Shown here piece after piece: positions 895-22,809 of a stretch of 39,560 nucleotides of DNA; the stretch's first letter is position 1; each line of letters begins with the position of its first letter. Where the stretch lies: NCBI GenBank assembly GCA_009903775.1, contig WYEM01000096.1, forward strand, positions 1 through 39,560, written 5' to 3'. The position numbers and the translations under genes were made by a program. Below the pieces are notes generated by a model. The model was not told the origin of the DNA. It did no database searches and saw only the letters and a list, made by a program, of their open reading frames with translations. This DNA is from Nitrososphaerota archaeon. Its GTDB lineage: Archaea; Thermoproteota; Nitrososphaeria; Conexivisphaerales; Conexivisphaeraceae.

Positions 895-904
895 CTGAAT
901 TAAA
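895..904 (-). promoter_or_regulatory. TATA-like box for the nucleotidyltransferase
   Basis: The reverse strand reads CTTTAATTC here, an AT-rich island in GC-rich sequence. It lies about 26-30 bases upstream of the ATG at 869, as for leaderless archaeal transcripts elsewhere in this window. Confidence 0.45.
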
Positions 905-1062
905 GGAATCGGCGCCGCCCGCGCTCCAGGCACCCCAGGAGCTTCCTGAAGCTGCTCAGCTCCCGAAGGGAATCCAGATTCGATTCATCGGCACACTTAG
1001 GCAGCATGCGCTTCTCGTAGCGCTCGTGCTGCCTCAGGTACTCGCTGATCTTGAGACCTCCC
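900..1062 (-). pseudogene. Remnant of a helical protein, possibly the N-terminal part of a GmhA-like sugar isomerase
   Basis: One reverse frame reads a protein-like segment with ISEYLRQHERYEKRML near its start and LRELSSFRKLLGCLERGRRRFL just before a TAA at 900-902. The ending resembles the helix that precedes the GNGGSA loop of SIS-domain phosphoheptose isomerases, but the loop itself is absent. No start codon is visible upstream, because the frame is cut at 1064 by the repeated surface-protein block. About 50 residues remain. The TAA also lies inside the proposed TATA box of the next gene. The assignment rests on pattern only, so it is tentative. Confidence 0.3.
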
Positions 1063-1063: not shown

Positions 1064-1743
1064 GCGCGATTTAACCTTATTGATCCATATAAAAATATTG
1101 GATTGAAATAACCACTCAGCCGGCGGTCGCCGTGGCGGTCGCGTTGGACGCGGGTATCGTCATCACCGTTATCCCGTAGCTCTGCCCGGCGATCGGTGTG
1201 ATGGTGATCGTGATCGGCCCCGCCGATCCCTCGGTGTCCAGGCGCGGCCCGAGCGTTATCGTGCCCTCGAACGTGAACGTGGCGCTCTGCCCGGGCCCCA
1301 GCGTGTAGCCGGACACGTTGAGGATCGGCGCGTGCTCCCCCTCGTCGGGGGCGTTGTGTGCCGCGTCGGAGTCGGCGAGGGCCGGCGCCGCCGCGGGCCA
1401 CCCCTGCGACCCACTGCTCATCTTGGAGCCGGGAAGGCCCGAGGAGGACGGCGGCGTGGAGTTCCAGCGCCACAGCTGGGTCGCGTTCACGAACGTGGTG
1501 CCGTTGGGCCCCGCTATGACGATGTGGTTCGGCCCGCTGCGGCTCATGTTCCCCCACCACTCATTCATCTCGTGATCGAACTCCTTCCCGTTGCCCTCCC
1601 ACTGCACGTTGAACTCCTTCGCCTTGGCGTGCGGCGGCAGGAACCACTTCGCCTCCAGGTGAGGCGCCGCCGCCTCGAGGGCGGGCACGAGCTGGGTGCC
1701 GTTCGCGAAGAACACCATGTGCATCCTCGCCGTGGCGCCGCTC
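1064..1743 (-). repeat. Partial direct repeat of the DUF4382-like surface-protein gene (copy of 10747-11455)
   Basis: This block matches 10747-11455 in long identical stretches and in the same orientation. It includes the last ~215 codons of the gene at 10804-12282, its stop and about 50 bases of 3' flank. The flank carries a T-rich tract (AATATTTTTAT on the reverse strand) and a GGTTAAATCG TATA-like motif. The homology stops abruptly at 1743/11455 (GCGCCGCTC in both). Copy and source differ most in one central segment (about 1310-1500), while both flanks are conserved. The signal peptide, the linker and the N-terminal domain are not present in the copy. Confidence 0.9.
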
Positions 1744-1832
1744 TGGACCCCCAGGAACATAGCGATGACCGCGGCGACCCTGATCCCGGCCCTCCAGCCG
1801 CTCCTGCTGGGCTGGTACTTCAGGAGGTACAT
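1116..1832 (-). pseudogene. Truncated C-terminal copy of the sequon-rich surface protein, fused to unrelated 5' sequence
   Basis: The 238-residue frame has two parts. Residues from about 31 onward match the C-terminal part of the protein encoded at 10804-12282 (MHMVFFANGTQLVPALEAAA at the start, VMTIPASNATATATAG at the end). Residues 1-30 are antisense to the gene tail at 1744-1953. By chance this antisense stretch reads like a hydrophobic export signal (AGIRVAAVIAMFLGVQSG). No TATA-like box lies about 26 bases upstream of 1832, so it is probably silent. The copy keeps about seven N-glycosylation sequons. It lacks the histidine-rich stretch of the full gene and carries NATQLWRWNST in its place. 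Confidence 0.75.
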
Positions 1833-1953
1833 CAGGAGCGCGGGGCTCCCCCCGATGGAGGCCCTGGAGATGTCATCGGTCGAGGTCCTGAGGCAGTTCC
1901 TCAGGTACTCTGGGATGATCCACCAGCTGATCAGGGGCGGGTACTACCGATGA
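1744..1953 (+). pseudogene. C-terminal tail of a truncated glycan-operon gene
   Basis: The plus strand encodes about 69 protein-like residues beginning WTPRNIAMTAATLIPALQ, with a short hydrophobic stretch and an ending LRYSGMIHQLIRGGYYR. Its TGA overlaps the ATG of the next gene (ATGA at 1950-1953), the usual sign of translational coupling in one operon. The 5' part is missing because the sequence switches to the surface-protein repeat at 1743. The family is not recognisable from this tail. The nearby genes suggest a membrane-associated glycan synthesis protein. Confidence 0.5.
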
Positions 1954-2953
1954 GGATACTGATGGTGTCGCCGCGGGTGACGGGAATAGGGGGTGTGGCT
2001 CAGCACGTCGGGAGGCTCATCGAGCTCCTGAGGGGGGACGGCCACGAGGTCGACGTGATATCGGTGGAGGGCACGCCGCACGTGCCCCTCAAGGGGCTCT
2101 ACAACCCGTCCTTCATGGCATCCTCCTACCTGAGCGCCCTCGCCCGCAGGCTGAGGGGGGAGGGCTACGACGTCGCGCACGCGCACAACTTCCCGGCCTG
2201 GCCGGCCGCCTCGGCCTCCCGCGCGGGCAGGAGGATACTGACCGTGCACGGGATCTTCTCCTCCCAGCACAGGGAGCTCCACGGGGCCCTGGCCGGGTCC
2301 GCCGCCGGGCGCCTGGAGAGGGCCTGGGCGAGGTCCGCCGACGCGCTGACCTGCGTCTCGCGCAGGGCGTGCGAGCACTACTCCAGGTACGCGAGGCGCG
2401 CCGTCTGGATACCCAACGCGGTGGATCCGGAGGCGATGCCGCGCGAGGGGATCACGATCGGGGACCCGCAGGTGGTCTACGTGGGGAGGCTCAGCAGGGA
2501 GAAGGGGGTGGACGTGCTCGCTGAGGCCGCGGGGCTCCTGCCCCGGGAGGTCACCCTGGTGATAGTGGGCTCGGGGGACGAGGGGCTCATCGGGAGGGCC
2601 CTGGGGCTCCCGAACGTCAGGTACGTCGGATACCAGCCGCACGAGGCGGCGCTCAGGTACATCAGGGGGAGCAGGGCTCTCGTGCTGCCCTCGAGGCAGG
2701 AGGGGATGCCGACGGCCGCGCTGGAGGCGATGGCGATGGGGTGCCGGTGGTGGCCTCCGACATACCGGAGCTGAGGGAGCTCAGCGAGAACATGGTCTTC
2801 TTCCGCGCGGGCGACCCCCGCGCGCTGGCGGAGGCGATCTCGCGCGTCCTGGCTGAGGGGTTCCCCCGGGCGGCGGCCGCGAGGGAGGAGGTCGAGAGGA
2901 CCTACTCGTGGCGCTCGGTCTACGCAAGGTACCTGGAGGTCTACCGCGGATGA
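1950..2953 (+). CDS. GT4-family glycosyltransferase (single frameshift near 2739)
   Basis: This gene codes for a retaining GT-B glycosyltransferase that would add a sugar to a lipid-linked or surface glycan in the cytoplasm. The N-terminal domain starts MRILMVSPRVTGIGGVAQHV. The C-terminal domain has VVYVGRLSREKGVDVL and the EX7E motif (EGMPTAALEAMAMG). At about 2739 the frame breaks in a run of four G. One extra G would restore GVPVVASDIPELREL and continue to the TGA at 2951-2953. It starts at an ATG overlapping the stop of the upstream tail and ends by ATGA overlap with the epimerase. The frameshift may be a real mutation or a homopolymer sequencing error. Without the repair, the product would stop at 2774 and lack the last ~60 residues. 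Confidence 0.85.
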
Positions 2954-3839
2954 GGATCCTGGTGACGGGGGCGGCGGGGTTCATAGGGTCGCGGCTGGCG
3001 GCCGCGCTCAGGGCGAGGGGGCACGAGGTGGTGGGGGTGGACATCAGGGGAGGGGTGGAGGTCGTCGACGTGAGGGACCTGGGGGCGCTCTCCGGGCTCG
3101 CCTCGCGCCTCCGCCCGGACGCGGTGGCCCACTTGGCCGCCCTCATAAGCGCCCCCGAGAGCCTGGAGAGGCCCGCGGAGTACTTGGAGGACAACGTGAT
3201 GGGGACCGTGAACGCGCTGGAGGCGGCTAGGAGGTCCGGCGCCGGGAGGTTCCTCTACTTCAGCTCCGTGGCCGTCTACGGGGAGCCGTCGGAGCTCCCG
3301 CTCAGGGAGGACTCCCCCCTGAACCCTGTGAAGCCGTACGGGCTGTTGAAGGCGATGGGGGAGGAGGCGGTGAGGGGCTACGGCAGGTTCTACGGGCTGG
3401 GGTACGTGATCCTGAGGCCGAGCAACGTCTACGGGCCGGGCCAGAGCCCGGAGTACGCGGGCGTGATCGAGTCGTTCGCGAGGGCGATCGCGGAGGGGAG
3501 GAGGCCCGTGATCCACGGGGACGGGGGGCAGACGAGGGACTTCGTCCACGTGGACGACGTCGTGGAGGCGGCGGCGCTGGCGCTGGAGTCCGGGGTCCGG
3601 GGGCGCACGTACAACGTGTCGAGCGGGAGGTCCATCTCGATCAACGAGCTCGCGCGCATCTTCGAGGAGGCCCTGGGGAGGGGGATCGAGTTCGAGCGCG
3701 GCCCCCGAGGCCCGGGGACATTTATAGATCTGAGGTGTCGAACGAGCTGATATCGAGGGAGCTGGGGTGGAGGCCCAGGGTGGACCTGAGGGAGGGGATA
3801 AGGGGGGTCCTGAGGGCGCACGGGGTGCAGCTGATGTGA
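2950..3839 (+). CDS. NAD-dependent nucleotide-sugar epimerase/dehydratase (single frameshift near 3703)
   Basis: This is an extended short-chain dehydrogenase of the UDP-glucose 4-epimerase family. It has the NAD-binding motif TGAAGFIGS at residues 6-14, FSSVAVYGE, the catalytic YGLLK (YxxxK) and the substrate segment RPSNVYGPGQ. The frame breaks in a run of five C near 3703. Adding one C restores the family-typical RPGDIYRSEVS and a tail ending GVQLM at the TGA at 3837-3839. Unrepaired, the protein stops at 3750 after 266 residues from this start. It is coupled to the GT4 gene by ATGA overlap. The exact sugar epimerised is not evident. Confidence 0.85.
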
Positions 3840-4781
3840 TCGTCGCGCCCCGCGCTCCACATGAAGCTGATCTCGCGCGAACTGGGCGTATATGGAGGCC
3901 AGCAGCCTGACTGCTGGGCTCCTCCTGAGCGAGGCGATCATCCATGCGAGATAGGCGGGCGTCGACGTGCGGACGCCCATCTTCCTCAGCCTGTGGAAGT
4001 TCCTCGCGCGATCGTATTGGGACCAGAACTCCTGATAGGGACCGTACCTCCGTGTGAGCAATGGGTGGTCGGAGATGTGCAGGACCGCGGGGCAGCGGGC
4101 GGGATCCCTGCACAGACAGGCGCGATAGCCGGAGATGACCGCGCGCAGCGCCAGGAAATCCTCGTAGTGGGCGCACCTCCTGCTGCCGCCGTAGAGCTCC
4201 GCCAGCCGCGAGCCGAGCACCGCCTCCCTCCTGAATCCCATGTTGGCGCCCACGAATCCGAGCGACTGGACGATCCTGCCCTCCGGATCGCATCTGGAGA
4301 AGACCTGCCCAGCTACTGAGAACGCGGCGCAGTAATCCTCGAGCCCGGCGATCGGCCTCCTGTAGAATGCCTCCCGGCCCGGGCGCCAGGCATCGCGCCG
4401 CGCGGACGGCGCGGGCTTCCCGTCGACGACGCGCGCGGGCACGACGACGCCGGAGATGCCGCCGCACCGATCGACGCGCCCGAAGAGCGACTCGTACCTC
4501 TCGATCCAGCGCGCGTCCGCCACGGCGTCGTCGTCCAGGAAGAGCACGACGTCGCCCCGGGAGAGCCTTATCCCCATCTCGACGGCCACCGCGACGTTCC
4601 CCCAGCGCTGCACTGCGACCCTCAGGGGCAGATCCCCCTCGTACCTACGCAGCACCTCCTCGGATCCATCGCCGGACGGCTTCAGGACCACCAGAACCTC
4701 GTCCGGGCGCCGCGACTGCCTCAGGAGGCTGTCCAGGGCCATCGGGAGGCTCCAGGCCCTCCTGTAGGTGGGGATGGCCAC
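3429..4781 (-). CDS. GT2-family glycosyltransferase with an unusually long antisense tail
   Basis: The N-terminal domain has AIPTYRRAWSLPMALDSLLRQ and the metal-binding motif FLDDDAVAD, typical of inverting GT-A (GT2) glycosyltransferases. A conserved HYEDF segment follows. The only near-end start is GTG at 4779-4781, preceded by GAGG. Recognisable protein ends near 3850 (IYAQFARDQ). Beyond that there is no stop on this strand until 3429, so the frame runs about 410 bases antisense through the epimerase gene. The true stop has probably been lost or shifted, although an antisense-extended product cannot be excluded. It is divergent from the next GT4 gene. Confidence 0.75.
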   Translation of the reverse strand: MAIPTYRRAWSLPMALDSLLRQSRRPDEVLVVLKPSGDGSEEVLRRYEGDLPLRVAVQRWGNVAVAVEMGIRLSRGDVVLFLDDDAVADARWIERYESLFGRVDRCGGISGVVVPARVVDGKPAPSARRDAWRPGREAFYRRPIAGLEDYCAAFSVAGQVFSRCDPEGRIVQSLGFVGANMGFRREAVLGSRLAELYGGSRRCAHYEDFLALRAVISGYRACLCRDPARCPAVLHISDHPLLTRRYGPYQEFWSQYDRARNFHRLRKMGVRTSTPAYLAWMIASLRRSPAVRLLASIYAQFARDQLHVERGARRSHQLHPVRPQDPPYPLPQVHPGPPPQLPRYQLVRHLRSINVPGPRGPRSNSIPLPRASSKMRASSLIEMDLPLDTLYVRPRTPDSSASAAASTTSSTWTKSLVCPPSPWITGLLPSAIALANDSITPAYSGLWPGP

Positions 4782-4862
4782 CGATATCCTCGTGCCAGCG
4801 CCACCGGTTCCCGCACCTCACATGCTGCCGCCGGAGGATCTTAATCCTTCAGGCGCGCGGCG

Positions 4863-4873
4863 GAAAGCTTACT
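4863..4873 (+). promoter_or_regulatory. TATA-like box for the second GT4 gene
   Basis: AAAGCTTACTT lies about 20-26 bases before the ATG at 4888, in the divergent spacer between two glycosyltransferases. This placement decides in favour of that start over upstream in-frame codons. Confidence 0.45.
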
Positions 4874-4887
4874 TGAATCCGCGGCGA

Positions 4888-6141
4888 ATGCCATGCGTGC
4901 ACGTGGCGATATTCACGCCCGCGGACAACTTGACCGGCGGAAATTATCGCACGTTCAGGATCCTCGAGGAATACCCCAGGGGGAAATACGCGCTCATGAT
5001 GCCCGGGGATGCAATCGAGAGGCTCAGGAGGGATTTCGGCGGGGTCCGCGTGGGGCGGCGGACGCTGTCGGAGATCCTGGACGAGGCGATCGCGCTTCGC
5101 CCGCTGGGACGCGCGTCGGCGCTGGGCTATGTCCGGTACGCGGAGTACGCCGCGCGGGAGGCCGCGCGCGCCGGCGCGGATCTGCTGTACTTCCCTCACG
5201 AGCACGCATACATGCCGCTCGGGTTCAGGTTATCCGGCGTCAGGTGGACCGAGCTGCTCCAGTTGACGCCGATCGTAGGTTCGCTCCCGCTGGACGAGGG
5301 GAGCGGCCTGCGGCTGTTCCTGCGCAACATGGAAGCCCGCGGCTATAGCCCCTCGAAATCGCTCAAGGGATACGCCAGGCTGAAGCTGATGGAGGCGGCG
5401 CTCAGGGGCATGAGGCTTCTCGCCGTGTCGAGGTCCATCCCGTACGAGCTGGAGAGGCTGGGGATCGACCTGGACGTCGCGGCGCTGGACCCCGGGGTCG
5501 GCGTGGACCCGTGCCCCGGGCGCGATCCCGGGGAGAGGGACGTGGACGTCGCCTTCTTCTCCAGGGTGACCCGCGATAAGGGGATATTCGATTTCCTGGG
5601 GGCGTTCGCGCTGCTGAGGAGGAGGGTGCCCGGGGCGAGGGGGCTGGTGATCGGCTTCGCCTCGAGCGAGGCGGGGGAGGCGGCGCGCGCCGAGGCGGGG
5701 CGCCTGGGGATCCTGGATTCCCTCGAATTCGCGTTCAACGCGCCGAGGCGGGATGTCCACGCGATCCTGTCGCGCGCCAGGCTGCTGCTATATCCGTCCC
5801 TGACGGACGCGTTCCCCCTGTCGCTGCTGGAGTCCCTGTCCTGCGGGGTCCCGGCGGTGGCGTACGACATACCGGCCATCAGGCTAAACTACAACACGCC
5901 GGCCGTGGAGAGGGTCAGGCCGCTCGACCGCGCCGGGATGGCGCTCAGGGCGGCAGAGATCCTCGAGGAGGGCAGATGGGAGGAGATGGGGAGGGCGGGC
6001 GCGGAGTTCTCGGGCAGGTTCACGTGGGAGGCCGCCCGGGGCGCCGAGTGGGACGCCCTCAGGAGGATCGCGGACGCTGATGATTCCCGAGGCGACCGCT
6101 CGCACCCCCTTCGCCCAGCAGCTCCCTCGTCGCCCTCCTGA
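4888..6141 (+). CDS. GT4-family glycosyltransferase
   Basis: A protein of about 417 residues with a GT-B layout. The N-terminal part reads MPCVHVAIFTPADNLTGGNYRTF. The C-terminal nucleotide-sugar domain has VDVAFFSRVTRDKGIFDFLGAF and DAFPLSLLESLSCGVPAVAYD, in which an Asp takes the place of the first Glu of the usual EX7E motif. It would transfer a sugar during surface-glycan assembly. The frame is open further upstream, but the ATG at 4888 matches the TATA-like box and the start of domain similarity. The last ~27 codons overlap the 3' end of the convergent epimerase gene by 83 bases and do not look conserved. Confidence 0.85.
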   Translation: MPCVHVAIFTPADNLTGGNYRTFRILEEYPRGKYALMMPGDAIERLRRDFGGVRVGRRTLSEILDEAIALRPLGRASALGYVRYAEYAAREAARAGADLLYFPHEHAYMPLGFRLSGVRWTELLQLTPIVGSLPLDEGSGLRLFLRNMEARGYSPSKSLKGYARLKLMEAALRGMRLLAVSRSIPYELERLGIDLDVAALDPGVGVDPCPGRDPGERDVDVAFFSRVTRDKGIFDFLGAFALLRRRVPGARGLVIGFASSEAGEAARAEAGRLGILDSLEFAFNAPRRDVHAILSRARLLLYPSLTDAFPLSLLESLSCGVPAVAYDIPAIRLNYNTPAVERVRPLDRAGMALRAAEILEEGRWEEMGRAGAEFSGRFTWEAARGAEWDALRRIADADDSRGDRSHPLRPAAPSSPS

Positions 6142-7042
6142 CCGCGCCCTCGGACCCCAGCCTGGGCCTCCAGCCGAGCCCCTCGATCCTCGAGACGTCC
6201 AGCTGCATGACCTTGACGTCCCCTATCCATCCCCTCCCCTCCGGCCCCCCGACCGGCCTCACCTTCACGCCCCTCAGCCCCATCTCCTCAATCACTATCC
6301 TAGCTATGTCGAGCACGCTGATGCGGTCCTCCGATCCCACGTTGTAGATGGACACCCTGTCCCGGGATCCATCGGCGCCGATCAGCATAGCATCGACGCA
6401 GTCGTCGACGTGGAGGTATGACTTGGACTGCGTGCCGTCCCCCAGGACCTCCAGCTCCCCCGGGTTCGACATGAGCTTCCCTATGAAGTCGTATATCACC
6501 CCGTGCCCGGACCTGGATCCCACGATGTTGGCGAGGCGGAAGATGACGGCCCTGAAGCCGTAGGAGTAAGCGTACGCCGATATCATCGCCTCCGCTGCGA
6601 GCTTGGTGGCGCCGTAGACCGAGATTGGCATCAGGGGGCCGTAGTCCTCGGGCGTAGGGATCGCCGACGGCTCCCCGTAGACCGTCGACGTGGAAGCGAA
6701 CGCCAGGACCCTGGCGCCGGACCTCCTGGCGTACTCGAGGACGTTGAAGGTCGCGAGCACGTTCCTCCTGTAGTGCCTCCCGGGGTCCGCGGAGCCGGTC
6801 CTGACCTCGGGGTCCGCTGCCAGGTGGTAGATGGCGTCCACGCTCCCTATGTCGGGGACTCCCTCCGAGAGGTCCGCCCTCAGGAACTTGAACTCGGGGC
6901 GACCCGCCCACCTGGACAGGTTCCCCAGCGAGCCCGAGGATAGGTCGTCTACTACTATCACCTCCTCGCCCCTCTCCATCAGCCTATCCACAAGGTGGGA
7001 GCCTATGAATCCGGCTCCCCCGGTCACCAGGACCCTCGCCAC
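6059..7042 (-). CDS. NAD-dependent nucleotide-sugar epimerase (UDP-glucose 4-epimerase family)
   Basis: An intact protein of 327 residues. The NAD-binding motif VTGGAGFIGSHLVD is at residues 6-19. ASTSTVYGE and the catalytic YGATK (YxxxK) follow, then FRLANIVG and SKSYLHVDDCVDAM. It probably interconverts NDP-hexoses or a related sugar nucleotide for the glycosyltransferases around it. It starts at GTG 7040-7042. A TATA-like box at 7064-7072 fits a leaderless message. It ends by an 83-base convergent overlap with the GT4 gene. It is the only one of three epimerase genes in the island without damage. Confidence 0.9.
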   Translation of the reverse strand: MARVLVTGGAGFIGSHLVDRLMERGEEVIVVDDLSSGSLGNLSRWAGRPEFKFLRADLSEGVPDIGSVDAIYHLAADPEVRTGSADPGRHYRRNVLATFNVLEYARRSGARVLAFASTSTVYGEPSAIPTPEDYGPLMPISVYGATKLAAEAMISAYAYSYGFRAVIFRLANIVGSRSGHGVIYDFIGKLMSNPGELEVLGDGTQSKSYLHVDDCVDAMLIGADGSRDRVSIYNVGSEDRISVLDIARIVIEEMGLRGVKVRPVGGPEGRGWIGDVKVMQLDVSRIEGLGWRPRLGSEGAVRRATRELLGEGGASGRLGNHQRPRSS

Positions 7043-7063
7043 GCTGATCCCATGCGCCGACCA

Positions 7064-7117
7064 CTCATAAACGTTCCAGGCGCGGGCGGCGATATATCAC
7101 GCCCTGCAAAGTTAAAT
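7064..7117. promoter_or_regulatory. Divergent promoter pair between the epimerase and GT2 genes
   Basis: Two TATA-like boxes face away from each other. CGTTTATGA on the reverse strand (7064-7072) lies about 26 bases before the GTG at 7042. AAAGTTAAAT on the plus strand (7108-7117) lies about 27 bases before the GTG at 7140. The equal spacing supports leaderless transcription of both genes. Confidence 0.6.
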
Positions 7118-9788: not shown

Positions 9789-10124
9789 TCAAAACATCTG
9801 AAGTAGGAGTAATCCTCGCCCTCCGGCCAGCCAGGCGACCGCCTCGCCGGCTAGCCTAGCAGCCTCCTCGGCGCCCAGGCCGCTCACCTCCTCCACAATC
9901 CCCTGGCTGGCGTTGTAGGTGACGGATCCCCTCCCGGTGTGGACCTTCACCCTGTGGCTGAAGACCCACCTCAGCCTCTCCGGGCTGACCCTGGCGCCCA
10001 GGCGGCGCTCATCCGGGGCGAGGATCGTGCCGAAGCTCTCGGATAGAGCGATCCCGCCCGCCACCCGGGGGACCTCGCATCCTGATGCCGATGAGACGAT
10101 CGACCGTATCTTGGTGAGGCTCAC
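9789..10124 (-). pseudogene. C-terminal fragment of the AAA ATPase
   Basis: A frame of 111 residues starts at a GTG overlapping the TGA of the preceding fragment. It reads SLTKIRSIVSSASG, then ILAPDERRLGARVSPERLRWVFSHRVKVH, and ends at GRGLLLLQMF. The middle resembles the part of AAA_21/OLD-like ATPases that precedes Walker B. The Walker B, signature and switch regions never appear. The gene therefore seems to have lost its 3' end next to the decayed epimerase. It could be a separate small gene, but it has no recognised domain of its own. Confidence 0.5.
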
Positions 10125-10728
10125 GAGCCCTCCGCCCTCACGAAGTTGGCGTTGGGCGGGAGTGAGAGGTATGCGGCGCCCGTCGGCTGAAGCTCCAGCC
10201 TCAGTATCTGGGGGAAGAGCGTGAAGATGGAGTACCTGGGGTCCAGCACGGGGAGGGACTGCACCTGGGGGACGTTCACGCCCGCCTGCCTCAGGCGCTC
10301 GATAGCGGCCCCGCTACAGTGCAGCTCGACGAGGTCCGCTCTCCTGCGCAGGCGGACGCCGCCGGCCCCGGGGTCCCCGACCGTCAGCTCCTCCTCCAGG
10401 ATCTTGAGGGCGTCCCCCGCCCCGTTCACGACGAACCTGTAATGGAACGGGACCCCGTTGGGGGCGCTCCCCTCGACGGCGAATTCCACGTTCCTCGAGG
10501 CGTCGTGCATGTGCACCATGTTCGCGTAGCCCCCCCCCAGTGGGCGAAGGGGTAGGGCGGCGAGCTCCGCGGCCGCGCCACCTCGCGCGCGAAGAGGAGC
10601 GCCTCCAGGAGGGAGCTCTTCCCGCTGCCGTTGGGGCCCACGACGACGTTCAGCTTGCCGAGTTCCACCCTGACGTCTCTCAGGCTCTTGAAGTTCTTAA
10701 TCGTCAGGGCGCGGTAATCGATCGGCAA
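10121..10728 (-). pseudogene. AAA_21/SMC-like ATPase, N-terminal part, frameshifted in a run of nine G
   Basis: The gene begins MPIDYRALTIKNFKSLRDVRVELGKLNVVVGPNGSGKSSLLEALLF, with an intact Walker A (GPNGSGKS). At 10530-10538 the coding strand has nine G. A tenth G would join this frame to YANMVHMHDASRNVEF, which continues to the TGA at 10121-10123. Such ATPases act on DNA or pair with nucleases in defence systems, but no nuclease partner is present. A TATA-like GGTTAAATC at about 10752-10760 lies about 26 bases upstream. That element is part of the 3' flank that was duplicated to 1064. Confidence 0.7.
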
Positions 10729-10746: not shown

Positions 10747-11455
10747 GCGCGATTTAACCTTACTGATCCATATATGGCAAAAATATTGGATTGAAATAAC
10801 TGCTCAGCCGGCGGTGACGGTCGCGGTCGCGTTGGACGCGGGTATCGTCATCACCGTTATCCCGTAGGGCTGCCCGGCGATCGGTGTGATGGTGATCGTG
10901 AGCGGCCCGTTCGACCCGCCGATGTCCAGGCGCGGCCCGAGCGCTATCGTGCCCTCGAACGTGAACGTGGCGCTCTGCCCGGGCTCGAGCGTGTAGCCGG
11001 GCACCATGGGCCCGGGTATCGGCCCGAGGTGCTCGTCGGAGTCGTGCATTGTGTTGGAGTCCGCGAGGGCCGGCGCCGCCGCGGGCCACTGCGACCAATT
11101 GCCCCTCCCGGAGCCGGGGAGGCCCGAGGGGGACGGCGGCGAGGTGTCTCCATGGCCCCCATGCTTTACGTTCTTCTCGTGTCCCTGATGGGTCACGCTT
11201 ATGATAGCCGTGCCGTTGGGCCCCGCTATGGTAATGTGGTCCGGCGCGCTGCGGCTCATGTTCCCCCACCAATCCTTCATAGTATGATCGAACTCCTTCT
11301 CGTTGCCCTCCCACTCAACCCTGAACTCCTTCGCCTTGGCGTGCGGCGGCAGGAACCACTTGGCCTCCAGGTGCGGCGCCGCCGCCTCGAGGGCGGGCAC
11401 CAGCTGGGTGCCGTTCGCGAAGAACGCCATGTGCATCTCAGCGGTCGCGCCGCTC
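10747..11455 (-). repeat. Source copy of the duplicated surface-protein 3' segment
   Basis: This stretch covers the 3' half of the gene at 10804-12282 plus about 55 bases of downstream flank. It recurs at 1064-1743 in the same orientation, about 9.7 kb away. The two copies bracket most of the glycan island. Confidence 0.9.
10776..10800 (-). terminator. Possible T-rich terminator after the surface-protein gene
   Basis: Just after the stop codon the reverse strand reads through an AT-rich tract containing AATATTTTTGCC. Archaeal termination commonly uses such T-tracts. The same tract, slightly altered, is kept in the duplicate at about 1084-1108. Confidence 0.4.
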
Positions 11456-12282
11456 ACCTGTATTGTGGCGTTGAGGTCCTCGGTCCTTATCGTCACCGGG
11501 GGCACGCTCAGGCTCCAGTTACCGTCGACGCCCATCCCGAGCACCTGCACGGGCACGCTCCCGCCGTTCCTCACCGTCACCGATATGATCGTCTCGTTCC
11601 CGGCGACGCGTATGACGGCGGAGGTCACGGTCACCTTCGCCGCGGAGCGCCCGAGCTCCTCGCGCAGCTCCTTGGGTATTTTGTGCACCGTGCCGGGCGG
11701 GGCCGTGTAGTTAAGGGGCACCGCCACCGCGGCGGGCGCCATGATGAACACCGGCTGGTCGCCCACGTATGCAACCGTCACGTGGGGCTGGAGGTCCACC
11801 AGCGCGCCCCGCGCGGCGCGGGACGCGTTCGCTATCGGTATCGTGAGGACGCCGCTCGGGAGCATCAGGGGGTACCTCGTGCCGTTGACCACTATTGACG
11901 CGTTCGCCACGTAGAGGCGGACCTCGTTCACGGTCGCGTTGGCCGGCACGCTCACCTGGGCGATAACCACGCTCAGGTTCTGGAGCGCCAGGAGGTCCAC
12001 GGTCCCCCTGGCGCTCGCGTTGGATATCCAGCCGTAGCCCTCGGCGTGGACCGCCACGCCGCTGTAGCTGACCAGCACCGCGCTCGTGCCGCTGGGCACG
12101 ACCGGCGGATCCGTCAGCGCGACCGCGTAAGCTATGGTGGTCGGGGCCGTCGAGCCCGTGGTCGTCGGGGCCGGAGAGGTCGGGGCCGGGGGCGCGGCCG
12201 CGTGCCAGTACGCGAGCGCGCCGCCGACCGCCGCGATCGCCGCCGCGACCGCCAGCACCGCCATCAGGGTCCTCGCGTTCAT
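10804..12282 (-). CDS. Secreted or membrane-anchored DUF4382-like surface protein, sequon-rich
   Basis: A protein of 492 residues. The N-terminus (MNARTLMAVLAVAAAIAAVGGALAYW) is a signal anchor. It is followed by a Pro/Thr-rich linker (about residues 28-48) typical of heavily glycosylated surface proteins. The next domain resembles DUF4382 and matches the layout of the shorter protein at 17282-17776. About 15 N-X-S/T sequons are spread along the chain. A histidine-rich stretch (THQGHEKNVKHGGHGD) lies before an Ala/Pro-rich segment. The ATG at 12282 is chosen over upstream in-frame codons because the signal peptide starts there and a TATA-like CTCATAAG lies at 12306-12313. It is probably exported and N-glycosylated. 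Its function is unknown. Confidence 0.8.
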   Translation of the reverse strand: MNARTLMAVLAVAAAIAAVGGALAYWHAAAPPAPTSPAPTTTGSTAPTTIAYAVALTDPPVVPSGTSAVLVSYSGVAVHAEGYGWISNASARGTVDLLALQNLSVVIAQVSVPANATVNEVRLYVANASIVVNGTRYPLMLPSGVLTIPIANASRAARGALVDLQPHVTVAYVGDQPVFIMAPAAVAVPLNYTAPPGTVHKIPKELREELGRSAAKVTVTSAVIRVAGNETIISVTVRNGGSVPVQVLGMGVDGNWSLSVPPVTIRTEDLNATIQVSGATAEMHMAFFANGTQLVPALEAAAPHLEAKWFLPPHAKAKEFRVEWEGNEKEFDHTMKDWWGNMSRSAPDHITIAGPNGTAIISVTHQGHEKNVKHGGHGDTSPPSPSGLPGSGRGNWSQWPAAAPALADSNTMHDSDEHLGPIPGPMVPGYTLEPGQSATFTFEGTIALGPRLDIGGSNGPLTITITPIAGQPYGITVMTIPASNATATVTAG

Positions 12283-12307: not shown

Positions 12308-13486
12308 TTATGAGGAACCCGGTGAAACGCTCGTGAAACGGCGCAGGAACGAGGGCACGCGCACCTCCACCTCCCCAGCCAGGTCCCCCGGGCCCCCAAG
12401 CACGTACCCGTCGGCCCGGGAGGGCGAGATCCCGTAGTAGTCGGGCTGGACGGGCTCCGCTATCCCTCCCCTCAGGCGCACCCAGACCATCCCCCTCCTG
12501 GGCAGGTGGAGGGGCCTGGCCAGGCGGGCCCTCACCAGGGAGTGGGGATCCCCCCTGAGCCCCGCGGCCCTCGCCACCAGGGGGGCCAGGAGGAGCGTCG
12601 CACCGTTCAGCGCGGGGACGCGGGGGCCCGGGAGCACCACCACCGGCCTCCCCCCGACCACGGCGCCGCCGCTCCTGGCGGCGTCCGCCACGTCGAGGCC
12701 GCGGAAGATTGCCGATGGCCCCAGGGACTCGACCGCCACGTAGGTCACGTCGCGGGAGCTCGGCCCCGTCCCGCCCACCGTGACCACTATGTCCGAGCGC
12801 CCGAGCTCCTCCCTCAGGGCCGACGCTATCGCGGAGGGCGAGTCCTCCACTACCCCCGCGTTGAGCACCTCGGCGCCGAGGGCGGCCGCGACCGCCCCGA
12901 CCGTCAGGTACCTGGTGGTCCTCCCGGGCCCCTCGAGCGATATCTCGCTCCCCACGGAGATCACGGAGACCCTCGGCCTCGCGTGCACGCGCGCGAAGCC
13001 CCTGCCGAGGATCCCGAGGACCTCCAGCTCCACCGGGGTTATCTGGGTGCCCTCCCCCAGCACGACCTCCCCGGCCCTCGCGCTCGACCCCCTGGGCACG
13101 AGGTTCTCGAGGGGCCTCGGGCGCCTCCCCACCTCGACGCGGCCGCCGCGGGCGACGGCCTCCTCGGCCGGCAGGAGGGCCGCGCGGTCGTCCGCGACAG
13201 CGCAGCCCGAGTATGCCTCTATCGCCTCCCCCGGGGCGATGGACCCGACCCTCTCCCCGGGGCCGCAGGCCCCCGCCACGCGGGCGGCCCCCGGCCACTC
13301 CCCGTCCGAGCTCACTAGGTACCCGTCCCTGGCGCACACGTGGTCAGGCGGGAGGTCCGAGGGCGCCCTGACGTCCTCCGCGAGCACCCTGCCCAGGAGC
13401 CCCCACCCGACCTCCGCGTGCTCCCCCCTCCCCGGGGACACGGCCCCCAGGAGGACGCGCAGCGCCTCCTCGAGCCCCGCGGCCAT
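12308..13486 (-). CDS. moeA: Molybdopterin molybdenumtransferase MoeA
   Basis: A protein of 392 residues close to the MoeA family length. It catalyses metal insertion into adenylylated molybdopterin, producing molybdenum (or tungsten) cofactor in the cytoplasm. Visible features are LPPDHVCARDGYLVSS near the N-terminus, VPRGSSARAGEVVLGEGTQITPVELEVLGILG, and the MoCF-like core RVSVISVGSEI with DIVVTVGGTGPSSRDVTYVAVESLG. VVVLPGPRVPALNG follows. The stop lies 26 bases before the surface-protein start. The archease gene lies nine bases upstream of its start, so an operon with archease is likely. Confidence 0.92.
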   Translation of the reverse strand: MAAGLEEALRVLLGAVSPGRGEHAEVGWGLLGRVLAEDVRAPSDLPPDHVCARDGYLVSSDGEWPGAARVAGACGPGERVGSIAPGEAIEAYSGCAVADDRAALLPAEEAVARGGRVEVGRRPRPLENLVPRGSSARAGEVVLGEGTQITPVELEVLGILGRGFARVHARPRVSVISVGSEISLEGPGRTTRYLTVGAVAAALGAEVLNAGVVEDSPSAIASALREELGRSDIVVTVGGTGPSSRDVTYVAVESLGPSAIFRGLDVADAARSGGAVVGGRPVVVLPGPRVPALNGATLLLAPLVARAAGLRGDPHSLVRARLARPLHLPRRGMVWVRLRGGIAEPVQPDYYGISPSRADGYVLGGPGDLAGEVEVRVPSFLRRFTSVSPGSS

Positions 13487-13495
13487 CCTCCCACC

Positions 13496-13915
13496 TCACA
13501 GGTCCAGGAGGAACCTGACGCAGCGCAGCCCCCCGCACTCGCCCACGTACATCATGTGGTAGGTCACCGCCTTGACCTCCCTCCCCATCCCGTGCCTCGA
13601 GGGATCGTAGGGCTCCCCCCTCATGGAGGCGCGCAGCCGCCAGCGGCCCTCGTCCAGGTCCACGGAGAACCTCGCGTAGGCCACCCTCTCGACCTGGAAC
13701 CTGTCCAGGACGCACTCCAGCCAGCCGTACAGCAGCCCCTCCGCGTCCTCCCCCTCCAGCTCGCAGCTCCCCTCGACAGAGCCCCTGACCCTCCTCACGT
13801 CGAGCATCACGGACATCATAGCGCGGGCGGCGTTCGCGAACGCCTCGGCGAGGGTCCTCCCGTAGGCCTCCATCAGGGCGTCCGACGAGTGGGGCAGCTC
13901 CCTGTACCACCTCAT
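13496..13915 (-). CDS. Archease
   Basis: A protein of 139 residues beginning MRWYRELPHSSDALMEAYGRTLAEAFANAARAMMSVM. It then has an acidic middle (ELEGEDAEGLLYGWLECVLDRF) and ends VKAVTYHMMYVGECGGLRCVRFLLDL, matching archease in length and layout. Archease activates the RNA ligase RtcB in tRNA splicing and repair. The acidic metal-binding residues expected for that role appear to be present. Its ATG overlaps the stop of the upstream P-loop gene (ATGA at 13912-13915). RtcB is not in this window. Confidence 0.9.
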   Translation of the reverse strand: MRWYRELPHSSDALMEAYGRTLAEAFANAARAMMSVMLDVRRVRGSVEGSCELEGEDAEGLLYGWLECVLDRFQVERVAYARFSVDLDEGRWRLRASMRGEPYDPSRHGMGREVKAVTYHMMYVGECGGLRCVRFLLDL

Positions 13916-14937
13916 CCCCGGCCCCTCCCGCCGATCCTCTCCTCCAGGAAGGAGAAGAGCTCGTCCTCGTCGCGGAATATCCTGGTCGAGTAGTACCTGA
14001 AGAACGGGCTCTCCGGCCCCCTGAAGACGACGTAGACGTCCTTCGCGCCCGAGAAGGCGTGGGCCATCTCCGAGAGGACGCCCGGCGACATCACGGGCGA
14101 GTGGTAGTACACTATGACGAAGTCGCTCTGGTCTATCAGCTGGTAGTCCCTCGCCACCGTCTGGTCGTAGATGTCCTCCCTCACGGACTCCGCCTCGGGG
14201 CCCCCCTCCTCCAGTATCTCCATGTCCTCCACCTCCCCGGGGTCGAACACTATGAGCCCCCTCCTCCTGAGCTCCGAGGCGAACCCCCTGACGCGGTCGG
14301 CGAGGTCCGCGCCCTCCCCCACGTGCGTCATCGGGTAGCTCAGGTAGGCCTTCGGGGCCGAGGGGTCCTCCAGGAGCCTCCCCAGCGTCTCCGGGGGGTG
14401 GCCGGCGGGTATCACGAAGAACGGCTTCCTCTGGAAGTCCGCTATCGACTTCGTCAGGAGCGTCTCCTCGTCCCTCCAGACGAGCATGTCCTTCAGGCCC
14501 AGCCTCCCCCTCCACTGCGGGGACCCCTCGAGCCTCCTCCTCATGCCCGCTATCGAGTCCACGACGGTCGCGTAGACGTCGGGGGAGAGCAGGTTCAGGT
14601 AGTAGAAGTCGAACGCCTGGAGGAGGTGCCTCCTCCACCTGAAGCAGGCGTGCGTGCTCACGATCGCGTGGGACCCCCCCTCCCCCGCGCCCGAGCGCAC
14701 CTCGCCCAGGATCCTCTCGAAGACGGTCGTCCTCAGGAAGTTCAGGGTGGAGGGCGCCAGGTTCAGTATCTTCCCCTCCGGGATCTCGATCCCCAGGTTC
14801 CCGGCCGCCTCGAACATCATGGGGCCGACGTCGAACACCCTGACCTCCCTCCCCGATGCCCTGATGGCCTCCGCGGCCCTCGCTATGTACTCCCCCCTGC
14901 CGCTCCCGCTCGTGCCCGTGACGACGGCCCTCGCCAC
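13912..14937 (-). CDS. P-loop nucleotide-binding protein with nucleoside 2-deoxyribosyltransferase-like C-terminal domain
   Basis: A protein of 341 residues. The N-terminal half resembles an adenylate-kinase-like P-loop domain starting VVTGTSGSGRGEYIARAAEAI. The usual Walker A lysine is replaced by Arg (GSGRG). The C-terminal half (from about residue 190) has KAYLSYPMTHV, a VFDPGEVEDMEIL segment, YQLIDQSDFVIVYY and SPGVLSEMAHAF. This is the layout of nucleoside 2-deoxyribosyltransferase-like folds. It is translationally coupled to archease. The GTG start at 14937 has a TATA-like box (CTTATATCG at 14960-14968) about 26 bases upstream. Its substrate is unknown, and coupling to archease suggests a link to RNA or nucleotide processing. 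Confidence 0.6.
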   Translation of the reverse strand: MARAVVTGTSGSGRGEYIARAAEAIRASGREVRVFDVGPMMFEAAGNLGIEIPEGKILNLAPSTLNFLRTTVFERILGEVRSGAGEGGSHAIVSTHACFRWRRHLLQAFDFYYLNLLSPDVYATVVDSIAGMRRRLEGSPQWRGRLGLKDMLVWRDEETLLTKSIADFQRKPFFVIPAGHPPETLGRLLEDPSAPKAYLSYPMTHVGEGADLADRVRGFASELRRRGLIVFDPGEVEDMEILEEGGPEAESVREDIYDQTVARDYQLIDQSDFVIVYYHSPVMSPGVLSEMAHAFSGAKDVYVVFRGPESPFFRYYSTRIFRDEDELFSFLEERIGGRGRG

Positions 14938-14959
14938 GCCTGCGCCGTGGGCCGGGGCC

Positions 14960-15005
14960 CGATATAAGAGCGACGAGCCCCGGGGCGGCGCCGGAACCTA
15001 TTTCC
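14960..15005. promoter_or_regulatory. Divergent promoter pair for the P-loop gene and the phosphohexomutase
   Basis: On the reverse strand CTTATATCG at 14960-14968 is about 26 bases from the GTG at 14937. On the plus strand AACCTATTTC at 14996-15005 is about 26 bases from the GTG at 15029. Both suggest short-leader or leaderless messages. Confidence 0.5.
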
Positions 15006-15028
15006 CGGGGCCCCGGGATGCCGGGGCC

Positions 15029-16411
15029 GTGGGGATATTCCGCGCCTACGACATAAGGGGGATCTACCCGGGGGAGCTGGGGCCGGAGCTCGCCCTGAGG
15101 ATAGGCCTCGCGTACGGCTCCATAGCGTCGGGGAGGGGGGTCCGCGGGATCTACCTCGGAAGGGACGCCAGGCTGAGCGGGCCGGCCCTCGCCGCGGCCT
15201 TCTCCGCCGGCGCGATGGCCTCGGGGCTCGAGGTGGTCGACGTCGGGCTGGTCCACACGCCCCTGATCTACTGGCTCACAGCGAGGGAGGGGGGGAGGGG
15301 CATGGAGGGGGTCATGGTGACAGCCTCCCACAACCCGCCCGAGTACAACGGCCTCAAGGTCTCGCACGGGGGCATGGCCTACAGCTACGGCGACCTGTAC
15401 GGCGAGGTCGAGAGGGCCCTGGCGGGAGGGGGCCCCGCGCCCCTCCCCTGGGACCGCGCGGGCAGCCGCTCCCAGGAGGACCGCCTGGGCGAGTACCTGG
15501 AGGACCTCCTGGGGAGGGCCCCGCGCCCCGAGCGCGGGCTCAGGGCGGTCGTGGACTCGAGCAACGGCTCCTGCTGGTTCGCGCGCGACGCGATGCTCCG
15601 CGCCGGGATATCGGCCATGGCCCTGAACTCGGAGCCGGACGGCAGGTTCCCCCGCCATCCCCCGGACCCGCTCAGGGAGGAGGCCTACTCGGACGCCTCC
15701 GAGGCCGTCCGCAGGGAGGGGGCGGACTTCGGCGTGGTCTTCGACGGGGACTGCGACCGCGTGGGCTTCGTGGACGAGTCCGGGAGGCCCATAGGCGGGG
15801 ACGCGGCCGCCATGATACTCGCGCGCGACGTCCTCTCCAGGCGCCCCGGCTCCAAGGTCGTCCTCAACGTGATGATGTCCGGGGCGGTCGTGGACTACGT
15901 GCGCTCGCTCGGGGGGACCCCGATCATGGTCAGGGTGGGGCACCCCTTCATCCAGGAGGCAATGGCGGCGGAGGGTGCCGCGTTCGCCGCCGAGATAAGC
16001 GGCCACCTATACTTCTCGGACCACTACGGGTTCGACGACGCCCTCTACGCCGCCCTCAGGTTCGCGGCGGCGATATCCAGGGAGGGGGAGCCCCTCTCCC
16101 GCATAGTCGCCTCGCTCCCCAGGTACCACTCCTCGCCCGAGCAGAGGGTGCCCTGCCCCGACGACCTGAAGTTCAGGGTGGTGGAGGAGCTCAGGCGCAG
16201 GTACGAGGCCGAGGGGCTGAGGGTGATCCCGATAGACGGGGTCAGGGTGGAGGTCGAGGACGGGTGGTGGATAATCAGGGCGTCGAACACGGAGCCCGCG
16301 ATAGTCATGAGGGCGGAGGCGAGGGACGAGGGGGCCCTGGCCAGGATCTCCTCGAGGATGAGGTCCGACCTGGAGGAAGCCCTCCGCTCCCTCGGCACAG
16401 CCGGGCGCTGA
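15029..16411 (+). CDS. Phosphoglucomutase/phosphomannomutase
   Basis: A protein of 460 residues, the usual length for the alpha-D-phosphohexomutase family. It moves phosphate between C6 and C1 of hexose phosphates, linking central metabolism to sugar nucleotides. In order it shows FRAYDIRGIYPGELG, GRDARLSGP, the phosphoserine loop VTASHNPPEYNGLK, the metal-binding loop DGDCDRVGF, the sugar-binding GHLYFSDHYG and the phosphate-binding RASNTEPAIVMRAEA. The GTG at 15029 begins the conserved FRAYDIRGIYPG segment and fits the TATA-like box. The last 107 bases overlap the 3' end of the DUF429 gene on the other strand. It probably feeds the glycan genes of the window. Confidence 0.92.
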   Translation: MGIFRAYDIRGIYPGELGPELALRIGLAYGSIASGRGVRGIYLGRDARLSGPALAAAFSAGAMASGLEVVDVGLVHTPLIYWLTAREGGRGMEGVMVTASHNPPEYNGLKVSHGGMAYSYGDLYGEVERALAGGGPAPLPWDRAGSRSQEDRLGEYLEDLLGRAPRPERGLRAVVDSSNGSCWFARDAMLRAGISAMALNSEPDGRFPRHPPDPLREEAYSDASEAVRREGADFGVVFDGDCDRVGFVDESGRPIGGDAAAMILARDVLSRRPGSKVVLNVMMSGAVVDYVRSLGGTPIMVRVGHPFIQEAMAAEGAAFAAEISGHLYFSDHYGFDDALYAALRFAAAISREGEPLSRIVASLPRYHSSPEQRVPCPDDLKFRVVEELRRRYEAEGLRVIPIDGVRVEVEDGWWIIRASNTEPAIVMRAEARDEGALARISSRMRSDLEEALRSLGTAGR

Positions 16412-16928
16412 GGTGGACCTCGCCGTCCGGGGCCCTGACGACGAGGGAGCGGCCCTCGAGCGCCTCCATCGCGACCACCGCCGCGACCACCGCGTCCAGG
16501 GCGTCCCGGGACGCGGGGAGGGGGCCGTGGGCGACGCCCGCGGCGCCCAGGAGCTCGCCCACCCCGCGGCACCCGCTCGAGGCCAGGGCGCTCCTGGGGT
16601 GGGTCTCTATCGCCCTCGCCCCCAGGCGGCCCACTATCGAGATGGACCTGGCTGCCAGCTCCCTCATCCCGCGCCAGGCCGGCGGGAGGACCCTGTGGCC
16701 CATGCGGATGAGCTCGCGGTCCACCTCCCTGAGGGCACCGGAGGAGGGGAGGGAGAGGGGCGAGTCCACCGCCACGGCGTCCGCCCCGCGGAGGGCTGAT
16801 ACTATCTCGTCGTCGCCGGACAGGAGGGCCGCCCACTCGAGCCTGGGCCCGCCCCTCCCCAGGTCTATCATCGCGGCACCGCTCGGCCTCCTGGGGGAGG
16901 CCGAGGGATCGAGTCCCCCCGCCCTCAC
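16305..16928 (-). CDS. DUF429 family predicted nuclease-like protein
   Basis: A protein of up to 207 residues. The start GLDPSASPRRPSGAAMIDL resembles the RNase H-like fold opening of DUF429. ADAVAVDSPLSLP follows, then the family segment REVDRELIRMGHRVLPPAWRGMRELAARSISIVGRL and AIETHPRSAL. Asp residues at the ends of predicted strands fit a metal-dependent nuclease, but activity is unproven for the family. The C-terminal ~35 codons overlap the phosphohexomutase gene antisense and look unconserved, so the natural end may be earlier. The GTG start lies at the end of the DUF134 gene and was probably an overlapping GTGA junction. Confidence 0.7.
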   Translation of the reverse strand: MRAGGLDPSASPRRPSGAAMIDLGRGGPRLEWAALLSGDDEIVSALRGADAVAVDSPLSLPSSGALREVDRELIRMGHRVLPPAWRGMRELAARSISIVGRLGARAIETHPRSALASSGCRGVGELLGAAGVAHGPLPASRDALDAVVAAVVAMEALEGRSLVVRAPDGEVHLSARLCRGSGGLPPGRTSSSRRSWPGPPRPSPPPS

Positions 16929-17238
16929 CGGGGATCGCCCCCGCGAGGACGAGGGGCCTCCCCTCTATCACCATTCCTACCAGCTTCCTCCTGCCGCTCT
17001 CCACGAGCCTCCAGACGGTCCCCCTGGAGACGCCCATCATGGCGGCGGCCTCCTCCTGGAGCATCCCCTCGTAGTCGACGAGCCTGAGGGCCTCCAGCTC
17101 GTCCATGGTCATCACGATCGCGCCCGGGCCCCCCGCGTGGGAGGGCGCCGGGACGAAGGCCGCGTACCTGGGCGCGAACCTGATTATCCTGGGCTTGGGC
17201 GGCCTGCCCCTCCTCCATCCCCAGCCCGGCCCCGGCAT
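16924..17238 (-). CDS. DUF134 family helix-turn-helix protein (probable small frameshift at the 3' end)
   Basis: The N-terminus (RGRPPKPRIIRFAPRYAAFVPA) and MTMDELEALRLVDYEGMLQEEAAAMMGVSRGTVWRLVESGRRKLVGMVIEGRPLVLAGAIPG match the ~100-residue DUF134 proteins, which carry a sigma-70-region-4-like DNA-binding helix-turn-helix. The in-frame stop is only at 16045, running antisense-like through the DUF429 gene. One extra C in a C run near 16935 would create a TGA overlapping the DUF429 GTG start. I therefore end the gene there. The TATA-like TTAAATC at 17260-17268 is about 26 bases before the ATG. Its targets are unknown. Confidence 0.7.
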
Positions 17239-17259
17239 GGCCCGGGTGCGGCCCGGGCC

Positions 17260-17268
17260 GATTTAAGG
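17260..17268 (-). promoter_or_regulatory. TATA-like box for the DUF134 gene
   Basis: CCTTAAATC on the reverse strand lies about 26 bases upstream of the ATG at 17238, just past the stop of the small DUF4382 gene. Confidence 0.5.
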
Positions 17269-17281
17269 GGCTCGCCCGCCC

Positions 17282-17776
17282 TCAGGGGGATGGGACCTGC
17301 TCGGCCGTTATGACCGGCGACAGGATCACCCGGCCGCCCCCGGTCGTCACCAGGTGGGGCCCCACCAGTATCTCCAGGTCGGCCGTGGAGCCGCCCCGGA
17401 CGCGCAGGCCTCCCCCGATTATGGGGACCTTGAGGACGCCGCTGGGCACCTCTGCCGTCACGTTGACCGGCCCGATGGTGACCTCGGCGGACGCGATGAC
17501 GAGCCTGACCTCAGTGTAGTTGCCGGCGGGGACGCTCGAGGAGGCGAGGAGCTGCGGGGAGGGGGTCAGCTCCACGGTCCTCGTCGAGTTGCTCACGGTC
17601 ACCCACCCGCCGGACTCCGAGTGCAGCATCACGGAGGACACCGTCACGTAGACGGCGGCGTCCGGGTCGCCCTCCACGTAGACGTTCAGGGTCCCGCGGG
17701 AGTAGTGGTACCAGGCGGCCGCCCCCGCGGCCGCCACCACGATCGCGACCACTGCCGCTGTGAGCGCGCGGTTCAC
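17282..17776 (-). CDS. DUF4382 domain exported protein
   Basis: A protein of 164 residues. The N-terminus MNRALTAAVVAIVVAAAGAAAWYHY is a signal anchor. The rest is one DUF4382-type beta domain: VYVTVSSVMLHSESGGWVTVSNSTRTVELTP, AGNYTEVRLVIASAEVTIG, and PSGVLKVPIIGGGLRVRGGSTADLEILVGPHLV. The same pattern of strands (SYSGVAVHAEGYGWISNASARGTVDLL and so on) occurs in the larger protein at 10804-12282, so the two are paralogues. It probably acts outside the membrane, but its function is unknown. It starts at GTG 17774-17776, with a TATA-like CAAAGCTTAT at 17801-17810. Confidence 0.75.
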   Translation of the reverse strand: MNRALTAAVVAIVVAAAGAAAWYHYSRGTLNVYVEGDPDAAVYVTVSSVMLHSESGGWVTVSNSTRTVELTPSPQLLASSSVPAGNYTEVRLVIASAEVTIGPVNVTAEVPSGVLKVPIIGGGLRVRGGSTADLEILVGPHLVTTGGGRVILSPVITAEQVPSP

Positions 17777-17800
17777 GGGGGAGGAGGGGGAGGGCGGGGG

Positions 17801-17849
17801 ATAAGCTTTGCCTCCCCGCCATCATTAGATGATGAACTTAAGGATATAG
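17801..17849. promoter_or_regulatory. Divergent promoters for the small DUF4382 gene and the MFS transporter
   Basis: Reverse-strand CAAAGCTTAT (17801-17810) is about 26 bases before the GTG at 17776. Plus-strand GGATATAG (17842-17849) is about 28 bases before the GTG at 17874. Confidence 0.5.
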
Positions 17850-17873
17850 CGCCCCTCGGCGCGCCGGCCGCGC

Positions 17874-19133
17874 GTGCGGGGCGACCTCCACGGGCTCGCT
17901 GCGCTGAGCGTCTTCCTCTCGATGTTCCTCTGGGGGTTCGCCGACGCGATAGCGCCGCTCGCCACCCAGTGGCCCATGGTCCCGGAGGGCGCCTACGTCT
18001 ACATGCTGCTCGCGGTGCCCGTCGGGCTGGTGTCGGGCAACCTCGCGATGGGCCACCTGGCGGACAGGGTGGGCAGGAAGCCCGTGATGGTGGCGGCCCT
18101 CGCCATCTACGCGGCCGGCGCGGCCCTCGTAGCGCTCGCCGGCTCCTGGGCGCCGCTGGCCCTCGGGATCGCCCTCCTGGAGTTCTCGGTGGCCGGCGGG
18201 GACGAGCCCGCGATGCTCTCCTACCTGGCTGAGTCATCGCCGGCGCGCTCGCGCGGCTCCCTGATAATGCTGGCCTCCAACGGCGCGAACGTCGGGGCCG
18301 CCGCGGCGGCGGCAATCTCCATGCTCGCGGGCGGCGGCTTCGAGGGGCAGAGGCTGGCGCTCGCCGCGACGCTCGCGCTGGCCCTCCCGCTCGCGCTGGC
18401 GGTGAGGGCGGGGCTCCCCGAGTCGGCCGCCTGGCTGCGCGCGAGGGAGTCCGGGGCCGGGGCCTCGCTGAGGCGCGCCCTGGGCGGCGCGGCCAAGGCC
18501 TACTTCCTGGTCACGATAGCGCTGACCACCATCCTGACCTACGGCCTCGTGTCCTGGGCGCTCGCCCCCTACTTCTACCCGGGGATGGTCCCGCAGATAA
18601 TCCTGGAGTTCAACGCCGGGGCGGTGGCGGGCGGCCTGCTGGGCTACGCGATCGTGGACCGCCAGGACAGGCGCTCAGCCTCCCTCCAATACTACGCGGG
18701 CGGGTTCCTCTCGGGGCTCGCGATAGTCGCCCAGCTGGCGCTCCTCCCCTCGGCGCTCTGGGCCTTCGTCCCGCTCCTGATGATCAACGGCGCATTCACC
18801 CAGCTGACCTGGGGGCTCAGGCTCGTGATGGAGCCCGAGCTCTTCCCGACCGGCCTCAGGGCCACGTCCATAGCGATCATCAGGACCTCGGGGTGGATCG
18901 CATACGTCGCGTCCCTCTTCCTCACCGGCGGCTTCACGGTGGTCTCGTTCATGGCCTACGACCTGGCCCTCTGGGCCCTGGGGGTGAGCGGCGCGGCCGT
19001 GTGGGCCGCGGCCGGCTACGAGACGAGGGGGAGGGCGATAGAGGAGCTGGACTTCCGCGCTAGTCCTCGGCGATCGCCACGACCCTGGCGGGCGAGCCGT
19101 CCAGGCCCCTCAGCCTCAGGGGCATCACGATGA
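17874..19133 (+). CDS. Major facilitator superfamily transporter, sugar/metabolite symporter-like
   Basis: A membrane protein of 419 residues with about twelve hydrophobic segments. The cytoplasmic loop motif GHLADRVGRKPVMV lies after the second segment, as is diagnostic of MFS proteins. EFSVAGGDEPAMLSYLAESSPARSRG and ELFPTGLRATSIAI are typical of the sugar and organic-acid symporter branch. The GTG start fits the TATA-like box. The last ~24 codons overlap the convergent cyclase gene by 74 bases and are unconserved. Its place beside glucose-oxidation genes suggests uptake or export of a sugar or sugar acid, which is inference only. Confidence 0.85.
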   Translation: MRGDLHGLAALSVFLSMFLWGFADAIAPLATQWPMVPEGAYVYMLLAVPVGLVSGNLAMGHLADRVGRKPVMVAALAIYAAGAALVALAGSWAPLALGIALLEFSVAGGDEPAMLSYLAESSPARSRGSLIMLASNGANVGAAAAAAISMLAGGGFEGQRLALAATLALALPLALAVRAGLPESAAWLRARESGAGASLRRALGGAAKAYFLVTIALTTILTYGLVSWALAPYFYPGMVPQIILEFNAGAVAGGLLGYAIVDRQDRRSASLQYYAGGFLSGLAIVAQLALLPSALWAFVPLLMINGAFTQLTWGLRLVMEPELFPTGLRATSIAIIRTSGWIAYVASLFLTGGFTVVSFMAYDLALWALGVSGAAVWAAAGYETRGRAIEELDFRASPRRSPRPWRASRPGPSASGASR

Positions 19134-22789: not shown

Positions 22790-22809
22790 GTGGTCGCTCC
22801 GGGCCCGCC

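Follow-up and report, generated by a model that had tools for sequence, protein, structure and literature searches.

A gene for a membrane-anchored surface protein with a DUF4382 domain appears, from comparison of its copies and relatives, to be diversified by recombination. We give a probability of roughly 0.6 to the reading that a repeat near one end of the window (the whole 39,560-nt stretch of DNA that was analysed) is a truncated duplicate produced by a rearrangement, and that this copy (C), the complete gene (A) and a third copy (B) have exchanged segments through conserved blocks. Recombination is favoured because the differences between the copies are clustered, a third copy exists, and that third copy is a patchwork of the other two. 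Copy C is more probably a side product of a surface gene prone to recombination than a built-in switching cassette.

The window corresponds to contig C112, one of 117 in a bin of 1.45 Mb that is about 80% complete, and A, B and C are grouped by their membership of this one incomplete bin. The comparison set contained one genome per species; G001 (complete, one contig of 1.59 Mb) and G002 belong to the same genus as the source. Feature coordinates are collected in Table 1.

Table 1. Positions of gene A, copy C and neighbouring features in the window, and of related 3' ends in G009 (VR, variable region; GT, glycosyltransferase)
Feature	Position	Strand	Description	Basis
Possible C-terminal gene remnant	904-1062	-	about 50 aa, ISEYLRQHERYEKRML...RRRFL, at 3' edge of C	open frame, GC3 0.81
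Copy C	1064-1743	-	repeats the 3' part of gene A and ~50 nt of its 3' flank; truncated at the 5' end	81% identity, E 1.5e-204
C 3' flank	1064-1115	-	past the stop codon; common to A (10747-10803), not to B	alignment
C conserved 3' block	1116-1312	-	91% to A	alignment
C VR2	1313-1367	-	45.5% to A; B is A-like here	alignment
C spacer block	1368-1455	-	89% to A	alignment
C VR1	1456-1497	-	NATQLWRWNST; 59.5% to A; B is C-like here, 93%	alignment
C conserved 5' blocks	1499-1743	-	88-91% to A, to the truncation point	alignment
GT2 fragment	1744-1953	+	last ~65 aa, cut at 5' edge of C	51% identity to end of G019 GT2
GT4-type GT	1950-2774	+	frame broken near end	Pfam
Part of glycan cluster	3624-7091		duplicated within the bin, on contig C104 (95% identity)	similarity
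Gene A	10804-12282	-	complete; 492-aa DUF4382 protein with a hydrophobic N-terminal anchor/signal; beside moeA	PF14321 and gene order
A VR2	11001-11055	-		alignment
A VR1	11141-11209	-	His-rich THQGHEKNVKHGGHGD, within a stretch of excess A/T third positions	alignment
Duplicate 3' end in G009	L054 (G009 C42) 2782-3076			
Duplicate 3' end in G009	L055 (G009 C8) 2890-3188			

Copy C repeats the 3' part of a DUF4382 gene

The protein of gene A scored 38.7 bits against PF14321 (DUF4382) in a Pfam profile search, for which the curated cut-off is 25; no Ig family was found. Its C-terminal half, which carries both variable regions described below, ends in ...ASNATATVTAG. Single-sequence structure prediction reached a pLDDT of 36, no relative with a solved structure was found, and a search of a defence-gene library gave no match. 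As the gene adjoins moeA here and also in G001 and G002, A holds the ancestral place. The adjacent gene for an ATP-binding protein (10121-10728) appears to be divided between two frames and is probably frameshifted. Nearby, 17303-17767 encodes another DUF4382 protein, a small one of about 165-180 aa that is conserved across the taxonomic order; its gene has a dS of 0.13 between G001 and G002 and is not hypervariable.

The earlier note had described C as a direct repeat of the end of gene A, and a similarity search within the bin bore this out: C aligned with 10747-11455 at an E-value that rules out a chance origin. A repeat search resolved the match into blocks of 96, 91, 81 and 86% identity. 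The copy spans approximately the last 44% of gene A, starting near codon 277 and including the stop, together with some 50-60 nt of 3' flank. It lacks the first ~276 codons and the upstream region, and with them the N-terminal anchor and the DUF4382 domain; gene A is complete, so that C is a start-less partial copy of the kind represented by pilS of Neisseria (see Discussion). We considered the 3' flank as a structured recombination signal and rejected the idea, its predicted fold being not unusual (z 0.12).

The reading frame of C is intact over 216 codons, and its indels relative to A are all multiples of three. We count this against our preferred reading, because a long-dead fragment need not keep its frame. 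The open frame also raises the idea that C is expressed as a short gene. The minus-strand ORF that contains it (1116-1832) is open to an ATG at 1832, beyond the truncation point, and includes a hydrophobic stretch, GIRVAAVIAMFLGV, which could serve as a new leader. This extension, however, is antisense to the plus-strand glycosyltransferase fragment, which has homologues in G019 and G009, so a genuine signal sequence there is very unlikely; moreover, the ~60 nt of upstream sequence common to A and the copy on contig C60 are absent from C. Expression as a short gene is therefore highly improbable, and C most likely yields no surface protein. The earlier description of the copy as lacking a signal sequence thus stands with respect to both the parental anchor and the extension, while for its description as promoterless the loss of those ~60 nt is the part that was seen. 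We infer that C is silent.

Differences between A and C fall into two patches

Base-by-base alignment placed the differences in two patches, VR1 and VR2, rather than evenly along the repeat. The conserved ends and divergent centre of the earlier description were recovered, as were the His-rich stretch in A and its counterpart in C, but the single middle patch was not: VR1, which also contains a 27-nt gap, is separated from VR2 by a well-conserved spacer. Blocks around the two regions are 87-91% identical, giving the pilS-like pattern of variable segments between conserved ones. Both regions may form exposed loops. Around VR1 of A, third positions are A or T in 14 of 50 codons, against 31 of 443 elsewhere (p 3e-5), which fits import of foreign sequence.

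A third copy is a patchwork of the other two

The 3' end of copy B occupies the last bases of contig C2 (36348-36814 of 36814). Contig C60 terminates in another 5' end; the 173 nt that match A there, ~60 nt of them upstream of the start, are 95% identical. The two ends may belong to one gene broken by the assembler, which would then probably be complete. Downstream, B departs from A and C immediately past the stop codon; the flanks of A and C match, which places the origin of C at the A locus. Beyond A, B and C, no further partial copies or cassettes were found in the bin (~80% complete).

Across the part common to the three copies, 53 sites unite B with A to the exclusion of C and 24 unite B with C to the exclusion of A; B alone differs at 13, and all three differ at 7. 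These groupings are sharply local. In VR1, B sides with C at all 15 two-way A/C sites and with A at none, while in VR2 it sides with A at 28 of 29 and with C at one (Fisher p 7e-11 for VR1 versus VR2); clustering as strong arose in 0 of 200,000 shuffles. By the criteria of the earlier note, this pattern favours recombination. Identity within the shared tracts is 93% (B and C in VR1) and 94.5% (A and B in VR2), short of the exact tracts left by a pilS-like donor, so no donor-recipient pair is seen among the present copies.

Because B sits at contig ends in a fragmented bin, and contig C104 duplicates part of the window at 95% identity, we weighed misassembly, or a second strain within the bin, as the source of B or C. 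We find this barely credible: C is internal to a 39.6-kb contig with its own flanks, and B has private bases and flanks of its own. B as an assembler chimera of A and C is ruled out by 20 bases peculiar to it. In the 20 kb to the right of gene A (12400-32300), nothing but an insertion element is present a second time in the bin, so strain mixture is not a general explanation. That element (25265-26575) occurs in the bin in many full and partial copies of 81-96% identity; its ends carry GC-rich hairpin-like repeats, and similar 34-nt repeats lie near 25254, 26526 and 39386.

Partial duplication followed by divergence without exchange, with VR1 and VR2 changing fast by mutation, indels or outside import while C decays, is a somewhat unlikely account of the same data. 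The three-copy pattern would also result if the ancestor resembled B and a single burst of change had struck VR1 in A and another VR2 in C, the aberrant third positions at VR1 of A are what import would leave, and C is surrounded by other gene fragments. It needs, however, two separate local bursts, one per copy, with nearly unchanged flanks on either side. Equally fast change of VR1 and VR2 in all copies is rejected (p 2e-9), since it would give private changes in each. The synonymous differences between A and B are patchy, and C has kept its frame, both of which tell against divergence of this kind. We infer that exchange, rather than lineage-specific bursts, produced the patchwork.

Copy C lies in a broken glycan-biosynthesis cluster

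At its 5' edge, C abuts a GT2 glycosyltransferase fragment (GC3 0.94) that has lost its first ~250 aa; the homologue in G019 is 318 aa long and precedes the same GT4 gene. The remnant at the 3' edge matched no Pfam family. Part of the cluster recurs as a 3.5-kb duplicate in L068 (contig C104, 1304-4778), beside which fragments of a GT2 and of an epimerase gene are joined. The decapitated GT2 gene at the edge of C and the duplicate with its GT2-epimerase fusion together place C within a duplicated and broken glycan-biosynthesis cluster.

The DUF4382 gene is replaced in sister genomes

Between G001 and G002, dS is ~1.0 along the entire DUF4382 gene, whose products are 65% identical, against a dS of 0.09-0.19 for nearby genes, and nucleotide identity falls from ~95% in moeA to ~70% from the start of the DUF4382 gene onward. 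Fast protein evolution alone would leave dS unraised, so these values point to replacement of the whole gene by a distant allele. Recombination at this gene is therefore well supported independently of C. The mosaic in B and the dS contrast between the sister genomes give the locus the local mosaicism of a surface gene diversified by recombination.

Gene order on the 3' side of the gene differs among all three genomes of the genus (G000, G001 and G002). The end of contig C60 carries NUDIX and tRNA-Pro genes, which flank the opposite side of the gene in G001, and the next G001 neighbour, a 124-aa gene, is found on C2 in the source genome, 7 kb from B. Elsewhere in the taxonomic order, G009 has two copies of the 3' end of the homologous gene, 98% identical but followed by different sequences, one of the two at a contig end, and G011 has an extra copy over two contigs.

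These genomes bear on the proposal of the earlier note that C is a silent storage cassette, whose variable segments gene conversion would transfer to the expressed gene and so vary the surface. Several features suit such a donor: the missing N-terminal part, the conserved blocks that flank variable ones, the intact frame and the patchwork third copy, together with the extra 3' copies in G009 and G011. Those extra copies, however, run to contig ends and may for that reason be whole genes. The donors kept in relatives that a pilS-like system would show are also missing, with one partial copy in the ~80% complete bin and none in the complete G001, which has a single DUF4382 gene of this type. Frequent copying should give identical tracts rather than the 93-95% found, and the 5' edge of C marks a chance break within a glycosyltransferase gene. 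With no cassette in G001, no identical tracts, and C lying in a scar of truncated genes, the storage role is unsupported and we regard it as improbable.

Discussion

We propose that a rearrangement in the glycan-biosynthesis cluster would have left behind a 5'-truncated copy of a hypervariable, membrane-anchored DUF4382 surface-protein gene, making at least three copies: A complete, B spread over two contig ends and probably complete, and C partial. Ectopic homologous recombination among them, with the conserved blocks as homology arms, would then have reshuffled VR1 and VR2 between those blocks. At best, copy C could serve as a passive source of variable sequence.

Recombination between gene copies is a well-known source of surface-gene diversity in bacterial pathogens; to our knowledge it has hardly been described in archaea. 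Our locus resembles the dispersed paralogues of bacterial surface genes that recombine ectopically, in having mosaic paralogues, one of them truncated, at rearrangement points. It differs in its archaeal host and in having no known host-immune pressure; pressure from viruses or grazers is a guess. DUF4382 proteins are, as far as we know, little studied. The DUF4382 (PF14321) protein HVO_1030 of Haloferax volcanii is glycosylated and secreted, and is listed with a lipobox (PMC8241124). Gene A shares the domain and an N-terminal hydrophobic segment with HVO_1030 but has in addition the C-terminal half that carries VR1 and VR2.

The nearest archaeal precedent in kind is the VARTIG modules of Thermococcales (arCOG07710), in which recombination is held responsible for the hypervariability of the C-terminal part of a secreted protein (Makarova et al. 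2021, PMC8416519). Both cases combine a hypervariable C-terminal part with recombination and shuffled gene order. In VARTIG loci it is strains and species that recombine with each other, not copies within one genome, and the proteins are large Ig-domain proteins with varied downstream genes; neither DUF4382 nor truncated copies are discussed (PMC8416519). With a DUF4382 domain, no Ig family and a host that is presumably not one of the Thermococcales, gene A falls outside that group.

In Neisseria, pilS consists of arrays of many partial copies that are frequent donors to one expressed gene, pilE (PMC3899283). The locus described here shares with them 5'-truncated copies and variable segments between conserved blocks, but has one partial copy, no array, no exact donor tract and no counterpart in the sister genome. 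We accordingly think it unlikely that dispersed full and partial DUF4382 copies form an archaeal system of surface variation in which C is a silent donor and VR1 and VR2 are exchanged through ectopic gene conversion.

The A/B/C locus offers a concrete, sequence-level archaeal case from a lineage of which few members have been cultured. Even if C is only debris, the locus would still record a surface gene that has been replaced and reshuffled repeatedly.
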